Source: Gammaproteobacteria bacterium (GTDB lineage: Bacteria; Pseudomonadota; Gammaproteobacteria; GCA-2400775). Taken from it: a DNA stretch of 32,888 bases. The first letter of the stretch is position 1, and every line of letters starts with the position of its first letter. The stretch is taken from assembly GCA_013151045.1 (NCBI GenBank), contig JAADIY010000006.1, forward strand, positions 1 to 32,888. Direction: 5' to 3'. Below the pieces are notes generated by a model. That model was given only the letters and a program-made list of their open reading frames with translations, made no database searches and was not told where the DNA came from. Below are positions 31,040-32,888 of this stretch, piece after piece. Both the position numbers and the translations under genes were made by a program.

Positions 31040-31104
31040 CGTAGGAACGCTTTCTTTTTCATCAATGTTTTTCGCCCTTCTTGGGCCCTAAAGGATTTCC
31101 TACG
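31040..31104. repeat. Palindromic element B1
   Basis: CGTAGGAA (31040-31047) and TTCCTACG (31097-31104) form a perfect 8-base inverted repeat starting one base after the VWA stop codon. Inside is the hairpin GCCC-TTCTT-GGGC (31074-31086). The stem lacks a downstream U-tract, so it is not a classical terminator. Confidence 0.6.
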
Positions 31105-31111
31105 GTCACGA

Positions 31112-31135
31112 GTTACTTTTTCGATAAAAAGTAAC
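31112..31135. repeat. Perfect hairpin B2
   Basis: GTTACTTTTT (31112-31121), loop CGAT, AAAAAGTAAC (31126-31135): a perfect 10-base-pair stem between elements B1 and B3. It could act as a structural part of the composite element. Lacking a following T-run, it is not obviously a terminator. Confidence 0.65.
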
Positions 31136-31181
31136 CAAAAATTCGACTCCCACACAGCAACCGTCCGTCTTCCAGGCGTAA

Positions 31182-31278
31182 CCTCGCTATTCTTCTAAAT
31201 ACGCGCGCTGCGGAACTCGTTTGCTTTGCTCTCTCAGACAGTCCTCGCTCTCGTCGCGTATTTAGAAGAATAGCGAGG
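31182..31278. repeat. Palindromic element B3 (perfect 24-base arms)
   Basis: Arms at 31182-31205 and 31255-31278 are perfect reverse complements over 24 bases (first arm begins CCTCGCTATTC and ends ATACGCG). The 49-base interior includes AACTCGTTTGCTTTGC and CAGACAGTCCTCGC, sharing the core of element A2. Perfect arms argue for recent acquisition or active maintenance. The type is reminiscent of intergenic palindromic repeats found in gammaproteobacterial genomes; I cannot assign a named family. Confidence 0.85.
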
Positions 31279-31320
31279 CTGCTGAGAGGGTCGCGAAAAC
31301 TATAGGAGTATGAGAAAAAC

Positions 31321-31460: not shown

Positions 31461-32273
31461 ATGGAACATGGAGAGTTATCGCCATTCTTAAAATGGGCTG
31501 GTGGAAAACGCTGGTTGACTCGTGGATACCCAGAGTTATTCCCCGAAAAATGTAATCGTTATATTGAGCCATTTTTAGGAAGCGGTGCAGTTTTTTTTCA
31601 GCTTTTACCTAAAAACTCTATCTTAGCAGATAAAAATAAAGAACTAATTGATACTTATAAGGCTATAAAAGACAATCAAAAATTAGTTCAGCGTTACCTA
31701 GCTAAGCATCATAAAAATCATTCCAAAGACTATTACTATAAAATTCGTTCTAGTGCGACAAGATCTATTTATTCGCGTGCTGCTAGATTCATATATCTAA
31801 ATAGAACATGTTGGAACGCTTTGTACCGCGTAAATCTAAATGGTCAATTCAATGTGCCTATAGGATCGAAAACTTCAGTGCTTCTATCTAGTGATAACTT
31901 TGAATCAACCGCTGGTGCTTTAAAGAGAGCAAAATTAATGCATAGTGATTTCGAAAGCATTATTAACAAATCTAGAGAAGGCGATTTTTTATTTGTAGAT
32001 CCACCATACACAGTTAAACATAATCTCAATGGTTTTGTGAAATATAATGAAAAAATATTTAGTTGGGATGATCAAATAAGGTTGAGAGACTCATTGGTAA
32101 GCGCGAGTAATAGAGGTGCGCAAATTTTATTGACTAATGCTGATCACGAAAGTATTAGAGAGATTTACAAAAATGTATTTAATTTGGAGAGGCTGGAAAG
32201 GAAAAGTGTGATTGCAGCTTCATCAATACACAGAATAAAAACTAGTGAGCTAATATTTTCTAATTATTTATAA
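31461..32273 (+). CDS. DNA adenine N6-methyltransferase, Dam/DpnM (D12 class) family
   Basis: Type II alpha-class adenine methyltransferase that transfers a methyl group from SAM to adenine in DNA. The 270 residues match the family length. Motif X FLKWAGGKRWL is at 9-19 and motif I FLGSGAVFF at 38-46 (SAM binding); the catalytic DPPY is at 180-183. The family members Dam and DpnM recognise GATC, but the target here cannot be read from sequence alone. The start ATG has a strong ribosome site AAGGGGG at 31446-31452, 8 bases away. The gene is clearly more AT-rich than the housekeeping block, with many AGA, ATA and AAA codons. The next gene starts 5 bases after its stop and codes for a nuclease-like protein, which suggests a restriction-modification role rather than the housekeeping Dam. 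Confidence 0.9.
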   Translation: MEHGELSPFLKWAGGKRWLTRGYPELFPEKCNRYIEPFLGSGAVFFQLLPKNSILADKNKELIDTYKAIKDNQKLVQRYLAKHHKNHSKDYYYKIRSSATRSIYSRAARFIYLNRTCWNALYRVNLNGQFNVPIGSKTSVLLSSDNFESTAGALKRAKLMHSDFESIINKSREGDFLFVDPPYTVKHNLNGFVKYNEKIFSWDDQIRLRDSLVSASNRGAQILLTNADHESIREIYKNVFNLERLERKSVIAASSIHRIKTSELIFSNYL

Positions 32274-32278
32274 ATTTT

Positions 32279-32888
32279 ATGATGAAAAATAAAGTTAATA
32301 TTATTGGTAGTCTGATATCTGAAATTATGATAGATGATGCGTTGGATTTAAAAAAAGAATATAGAAAGCGCAACTCTTCAATGGAGAAGATAAAGGTTCC
32401 TAACTCTTCTGTAAATAATTATGTCAATGAAAATTGGAGTGTATCAAGAGAATTAAAGAAAGATAGCTGGCTCGAGAGAGAAAAGAAACATAATTTCAAA
32501 TTGACTGATGATTTATGGGCTATATTTTATAGAATGGGTTATAGAGAGCTGGCAAGTTCTTTAGTCAAATTGCCTTACGGCGAAACTGATGACATAATAA
32601 AAAAGAAGCAAGTAGATATAATAGCGAAAGATGATGAAACTGTACTGATTGTAGAATGCAAGTCATCACTAAGACGTGGCAGAAGAAACTTGCAGAAAGA
32701 CTTAAATGAAACGATGCTGCTTAAGGGGGAAATAGCAGCGGGTATAAAGAGCCACTATGGTAAAGAATTTAAGCCAAAAATAATTTGGGTGTACGTGACC
32801 AAAAATATTATATGGTCGGAGGCAGACATAAATTTGGCTCAAAAAGCCAAGATAAATGTGTTGACTGAAAATGAGGTGTCCTATTACG
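32279..32888 (+). CDS. Putative PD-(D/E)XK nuclease-domain protein, 3' end outside window
   Basis: This reading frame begins 5 bases after the methyltransferase stop (ATG 32279, or the adjacent ATG 32282) and stays open to the window end, giving 203 residues. No Shine-Dalgarno is seen, so translational coupling to the methyltransferase is likely. After a Lys-rich N-terminal region, residues 76-130 contain DDLWAIFYRMGYREL, then QVDIIAKDDETVLIVECKSS. The Asp113 followed by Glu126-x-Lys128 on adjacent strands is the core of the PD-(D/E)XK nuclease fold. The context makes it a candidate restriction endonuclease. An alternative is a DGQHR/DndB-type protein with such an N-terminal domain, which the layout around residues 76-203 faintly recalls; the missing C-terminus would decide. 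Confidence 0.65.
   Translation, partial: MMKNKVNIIGSLISEIMIDDALDLKKEYRKRNSSMEKIKVPNSSVNNYVNENWSVSRELKKDSWLEREKKHNFKLTDDLWAIFYRMGYRELASSLVKLPYGETDDIIKKKQVDIIAKDDETVLIVECKSSLRRGRRNLQKDLNETMLLKGEIAAGIKSHYGKEFKPKIIWVYVTKNIIWSEADINLAQKAKINVLTENEVSYY

Follow-up and report, generated by a model that had tools for sequence, protein, structure and literature searches.

The window analysed here is the entire contig C8 (32,888 bases) of a 1.95-Mb genome assembled in 62 contigs. Two genes, referred to below as the cassette, lie at its right end, each with a G+C content of 33% against 43.8% for the window. The features of the locus are as follows:

31040..31302, no strand: interspersed repeat that contains a 24-nt inverted repeat; it separates the host VWA gene from the cassette, forms the left flank and is outside the system (repeat and palindrome searches)
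31461..32273, plus strand: Dam-family N6-adenine DNA methyltransferase, 270 aa, ATG start, putative modification half of the cassette (TIGR00571, PF02086, best PDB matches, clade-invariant residues)
32279..32888, plus strand: N-terminal 203 residues of a predicted PD-(D/E)XK-DGQHR fusion, truncated by the contig end (homologue comparison and continuation on contig C10)
32609..32662, plus strand: predicted PD-(D/E)XK core QVDIIAKDDETVLIVECK with D113, E126 and K128 (conservation in methylase-linked fusions, structural-model matches)

Five bases past the stop codon of the methyltransferase (MTase), at 32279, the second ORF begins; it runs for 203 codons off the end of the window. It is truly cut, because the contig stops at 32888. 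The spacing, the open end and the AT-rich composition of both genes agree with the preliminary description of this DNA. The same applies to the motifs it reported: FLKWAGGK, EPFLGSG and DPPY are intact in the MTase, and Asp113, Glu126 and Lys128 are found at these positions of the second protein and are kept in its homologues.

The MTase belongs to the TIGR00571 family ("dam"), with a score of 242.6 bits (cut-off 114.85), and scores 166 bits against PF02086. Its best PDB sequence matches are M.DpnII (188.8 bits) and E. coli Dam, and PADLOC assigns it to the Type II MTases. K11, N119, L121, R123 and P133 correspond to the E. coli Dam residues that we take to contact GATC, and all of them are kept. 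In detail, N119, R123, P133 and the DPPY motif are identical in 123/123 members of the MTase clade described below. Judged from these sequence features, the enzyme probably methylates adenine in the host's own DNA, in GATC. A single copy is present in the source genome and none of the four congeners has a match (0/4), their completeness of 52, 89, 80 and 95% making the absence uncertain in each one taken singly.

Plasmid homologues of the second gene are annotated as "DGQHR domain-containing protein" and are ~770-790 aa long. The 203-residue fragment matches their N-terminal 200 residues with 31-33% identity, and the DGQHR/DndB domain comes next in these proteins. On this comparison, gene 2 is best described as the PD-(D/E)XK end of a predicted PD-(D/E)XK–DGQHR fusion of ~780 aa. 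The architecture, read from the homologues and from two contig ends of the source genome, consists of a putative N-terminal PD-(D/E)XK nuclease, a central DGQHR domain (predicted ParB/sulfiredoxin-type fold, GmrS/DndB-like) and a helical C-terminal region. The preliminary description had left the partner as either an endonuclease or a DGQHR/DndB-like protein, and it appears to be both, as the homologues are fusions of the two and the C-terminal half was found on contig C10.

This second half, recovered by searching the source genome with the whole homologue, is a frame of 401 codons at the extreme end of C10 (G000:C10:28771-29978, minus strand; L009:15772-16979). The remainder of the protein thus bears a defence-type domain. 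Between the two halves the assembly lacks about 170 residues, which would include the DGQHR motif; among the contigs of the source genome, neither an overlap of the C8 and C10 ends nor a third contig covering the gap was found. That both halves belong to one gene is supported by three observations. The VWA gene, located left of the cassette, and the DUF2892 gene, located right of it on C10, are 340 bp apart and in the same orientation in the sister genome G004. Neither half has a second copy in the genome. The two halves also rank the other fusions alike (Spearman 0.76), with L076 as the nearest relative of both (43% identity for the N-terminal and 50% for the C-terminal half), and the gene order at L076 is the same. 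The full-length L076 protein scores 137.4 bits against the TIGR03187 DGQHR domain (cut-off 58.85), and the C-terminal half of the source genome scores 30.5 bits, because the part with the DGQHR motif falls in the assembly gap.

Scanned against genome contigs and viral contigs, the 203 residues gave 0 matches; in phage records neither half of the protein was matched and the full homologue gave DGQHR-domain matches only; PDB sequence searches with the fragment and with the L072 fusion returned no credible relative. A profile search with the 203 residues, as the preliminary description had proposed, did return Hjc/PD-(D/E)XK matches, but all were below threshold.

The putative nuclease core is conserved. 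Among the aligned methylase-linked fusions (n=30), the core Asp is found in 30/30, the Glu in 29/30 and the Lys in 28/30, the latter being lost in L049 (ECR) and L096 (KCV). The DGQHR and FxxIN motifs are invariant across the fusions. An AlphaFold2 model of L076, the nearest full-length fusion, was built from 29 sequences (pLDDT 87, pTM 0.73). Its Foldseek matches in the PDB include Card1/Cdn1, VC1899, AF1548, McrC, R2 endonuclease and Hjc, with weak E-values (best 1.6e-3), and a ParB-like protein at rank 40. Among predicted viral structures (BFVD), it matched GmrSD N-terminal domains, DndB-type proteins and restriction endonucleases. According to the model, the fusion is predicted to fold as a PD-(D/E)XK domain plus a GmrS/DndB-like domain. 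The D...E-x-K core, together with the alpha/beta nuclease fold, places it in the PD-(D/E)XK superfamily, with Pfam matches remaining below cut-off.

Fusions with the same domain order and 30-33% identity to L076 are also found by radical SAM genes (Novosphingobium pNL1, Agrobacterium and L200). These differ in their partners, which are radical SAM, ATPase or second DGQHR genes, and in the nuclease Lys, which is changed to R, T and R. The Lys is replaced in 3/3 of the cases examined (L004:6001-8310, L005:5869-8229 and L200:4938-7241, with ECR/ECT/ECR), and in L200 the core Asp is an Asn as well. The plasmid representatives have a second DGQHR gene and a HATPase gene nearby. They may represent a further modification system, one in which the nuclease is altered.

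In the sister genome G004 the site of the cassette is empty, and the cassette was not found in any of the four congeners, at the completeness given above. The stretch to the right of the VWA gene varies among the congeners, as expected of a variable insertion site. The palindromes at the left edge had been considered a mark of an acquired island. The palindrome does exist, with perfect 24-nt arms (31182-31205 and 31255-31278), but its role as a boundary is rejected, because it is part of the interspersed repeat, which has 16 matches in the source genome and 17 in the congener G002, several of them <1 kb from contig ends. Downstream of the cassette on C10 (L009:12740-13481), a hydrolase-like sequence is split over two frames and is possibly a decayed gene.

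An alignment of the methyltransferase was scanned over 84,980 species genomes and IMG/VR, yielding 80 + 80 loci, and the neighbours were classed with home-made DGQHR profiles. A clade of 122 loci carries MTases 49-63% identical to that of the window. The cassettes of 99 of these 122 loci include a DGQHR gene, in three layouts; these counts overstate the independent events, as they include near-duplicate loci from prophages or from a contig present in both collections. Beside the more distant Dam homologues (≤41% identity), no DGQHR gene was found (0/38 loci). The fusion model is matched in only 10/398 sampled genomes of the phylum, the source genome included, and the pairing of Dam and DGQHR genes is therefore far beyond chance. 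It also recurs in virus-derived contigs.

Layout A (32 loci) has the PD-(D/E)XK-DGQHR fusion, mostly 760-816 aa, encoded in all 32 on the same strand as the MTase and overlapping it or ≤215 nt apart. Its hosts belong to Pseudomonadota, Acidobacteriota, Actinomycetota, Verrucomicrobiota, Nitrospirota and Thermodesulfobacteriota. Layout B (58 loci, and one more truncated at a contig end) combines a protein of 160-240 aa with 2-5 predicted membrane spans and a DGQHR protein of ~390 aa. Layout C (9 loci, plus 3 cut or broken) has a DGQHR protein of ~510 aa and a ~450-aa protein of unrecognised kind; the predicted fold of a 447-aa representative (pLDDT 78) had no convincing match in the PDB. In layout D (14 loci) the partners are a HerA-type ATPase and a NurA-like protein. 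Other partners are found at 5/122 loci, one of them a ParB protein.

On the MTase tree, the type of partner has changed at least 22 times among the four types. Swapping of this kind in a single MTase clade would be expected if one modification module were combined with different restriction modules. Divergences of the fusion and of the MTase are correlated nonetheless (Mantel r 0.44; 0 of 2000 permutations).

Several variants of these arrangements were recorded. In P2-like prophages (L108, L109, L111, L118, L131-L133, L135, L140 and L144), the Dam and DGQHR genes are convergent; behind the DGQHR gene comes the gene for the membrane protein and, frequently, a repressor gene too, an arrangement resembling a cargo position. 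At blastn sensitivity, the prophage-type cassette has no relative at the DNA level among E. coli genomes. Examples of the HerA-type ATPase with a NurA-like partner are L085:6827-8821 and L075:8824-10167, and also L045, L046, L061, L083, L088, L102, L103, L105, L122 and L138. The name "NurA-like" is a tentative one, given from our reading of the sequences with no library match, and the combination with the Dam clade is a candidate for a further defence pairing. At L035:6813-8594, the DGQHR gene is replaced by genes for a classical ParB_N protein, which is another ParB-superfamily partner, and for a protein of 276 aa with no Pfam match. Rare partners, named by eye, are a possible winged-helix protein with a membrane-anchored protein (L080:3764-5520) and a phosphoesterase-like protein with a P-loop protein (L125:7346-10347). 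In the viral contig L203 (4388-7169), a further fusion overlaps a Dam reading frame, and it is this Dam frame that is without its N-terminal part.

Three groups of known systems share features with the cassette. The DGQHR domain is common to the fusion and to the DndB/DGQHR family of phosphorothioation systems (TIGR03187, PF14072). On the contrary, the fusion is joined to a putative PD-(D/E)XK nuclease and is linked to Dam rather than to dndACDE. L076 scores 19.4 bits against DndB (TIGR03233; cut-off 328) and 60.5 bits against DpdB (NF041060; cut-off 300), which excludes it from both equivalogs, and fusion scores are also far below the cut-off of the DGQHR_dnd_1 equivalog. GmrSD, BrxU and SspE (DUF262 ParB-type fold plus HNH) likewise have a nuclease joined to a ParB-type switch domain in one polypeptide, but the fusion has an N-terminal PD-(D/E)XK instead of a C-terminal HNH domain and a dedicated Dam MTase alongside. 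Neither PF03235 (DUF262) nor HNH (DUF1524) was matched in the scanned fusions L030, L072, P0001 and P0002, which sets these apart from the GmrSD/SspE type. Type II restriction-modification (R-M) systems with a Dam-type MTase (DpnII/MboI) have a similar MTase, as seen in the M.DpnII score and the retained GATC-contact residues. Of the two traits of a Type II R-M system, adjacency of endonuclease and MTase and a sequence specificity common to both, the adjacency is observed for the MTase and the nuclease fusion. The partner, however, bears a DGQHR domain, and the libraries searched yielded no known GATC endonuclease that matches its sequence.

In PADLOC 2023 and NCBIfam, the DGQHR parts are named only as remote DpdB/DndB or as a bare DGQHR domain. 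No description of Dam-DGQHR pairs was found in the literature searched on DGQHR, DndB, ParB, HerA/NurA and methyltransferases, which covered few subscription journals and preprints.

The adjacent MTase, the conserved nuclease core, the horizontal mobility and the exchange of partners point to R-M-type defence. We consider it rather probable that the cassette is an acquired two-gene, restriction-modification-like defence system, as the preliminary description had proposed. The recurrent pairing of Dam with a nuclease-DGQHR protein suggests an undescribed restriction-type defence against viruses. ParB folds bind CTP, ATP or GTP, and a DndB-like one binds ATP and GTP (PMC12704722); in SspE, recognition of the mark triggers GTP hydrolysis and then cleavage (PMC13251355). 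The Dam-family enzyme would mark self DNA by adenine methylation. By analogy to these remote relatives, the DGQHR domain would bind DNA and NTP and check the DNA for the Dam mark, and an NTP-driven change would let the PD-(D/E)XK nuclease cut unmarked invading DNA. The absence of the mark is favoured as the trigger over its presence. This logic would resemble that of SspE or GmrSD, with the PD-(D/E)XK domain standing for HNH. The DGQHR domain is the likely sensor or switch, because it is common to layouts A-C, and in the sibling systems it may work with the small membrane protein or the layout C protein as effector. The effector thus seems to be exchangeable.

The opposite trigger, in which the DGQHR-nuclease acts on sensing a methyl or foreign mark and the Dam mark licenses the nuclease, is unlikely. 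In its favour, phosphorothioate marks are the trigger of SspE, whose DUF262 ParB-type fold is related (PMC13251355), modified DNA is the target of GmrSD (PMC4619093), and the fusion model is similar to GmrSD N-terminal domains. However, GATC is not avoided in the host (117 sites in the window against 122 expected); an effector responding to methylated GATC would therefore have to tell self from non-self by some other cue. The same MTase clade also serves HerA and NurA-like partners. Somewhat less likely still is a plain Type II R-M system, with the PD-(D/E)XK domain as an ordinary endonuclease and the DGQHR/C-terminal part only as a recognition module with no nucleotide switch. The MTase does adjoin a nuclease with its catalytic residues kept, and its PADLOC class agrees with this reading, but the DGQHR motif and the ParB/GmrS-like fold are conserved and 58 clade loci pair DGQHR with a membrane protein, not with this nuclease.

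An improbable reading is that the pair serves epigenetic regulation or anti-restriction, marking the DNA of a mobile element so that it escapes host restriction, with the DGQHR protein as a DndB-like repressor. Several copies are located in P2-like and other prophage contigs, and DndB has been described as a transcriptional repressor (PMC4507180, PMC10853773), its role being disputed between transcription repressor, NTPase and nuclease (PMC10853773). Such a role, however, needs neither a conserved nuclease core nor a membrane partner. Finally, that the MTase is the conserved housekeeping Dam of the lineage, an orphan with an unrelated neighbour, is rejected as highly improbable in spite of its Dam family membership, since it is a single copy here that was not found in four congeners, and the low G+C, the empty site in G004 and the repetition of the pairing elsewhere also stand against it.

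Returning to the R-M-like defence reading, the siblings of the cassette may form a widespread, so far undescribed methylation-guarded family, a joint claim to which we give slightly less than even chances. In such a family, the Dam clade would mark self and the DGQHR protein would be an NTP-driven sensor of unmarked DNA. The effectors that it drives would be interchangeable: in one case the fused PD-(D/E)XK nuclease, in another a membrane protein that might arrest the cell, and in a third a helical protein of no recognised fold. So far, discussion of DGQHR/DndB proteins has centred on phosphorothioate or deazaguanine marks. With its probable GATC mark, and with E. coli dam mutants available as hosts, the Dam-DGQHR pair is a simple two-gene setting in which the signal sensed by a DGQHR protein can be tested directly. 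The pairing may add an R-M-like family that is unnamed in the profile libraries searched and, if the wider reading is true, this family would be a hybrid of R-M and abortive-infection modules.
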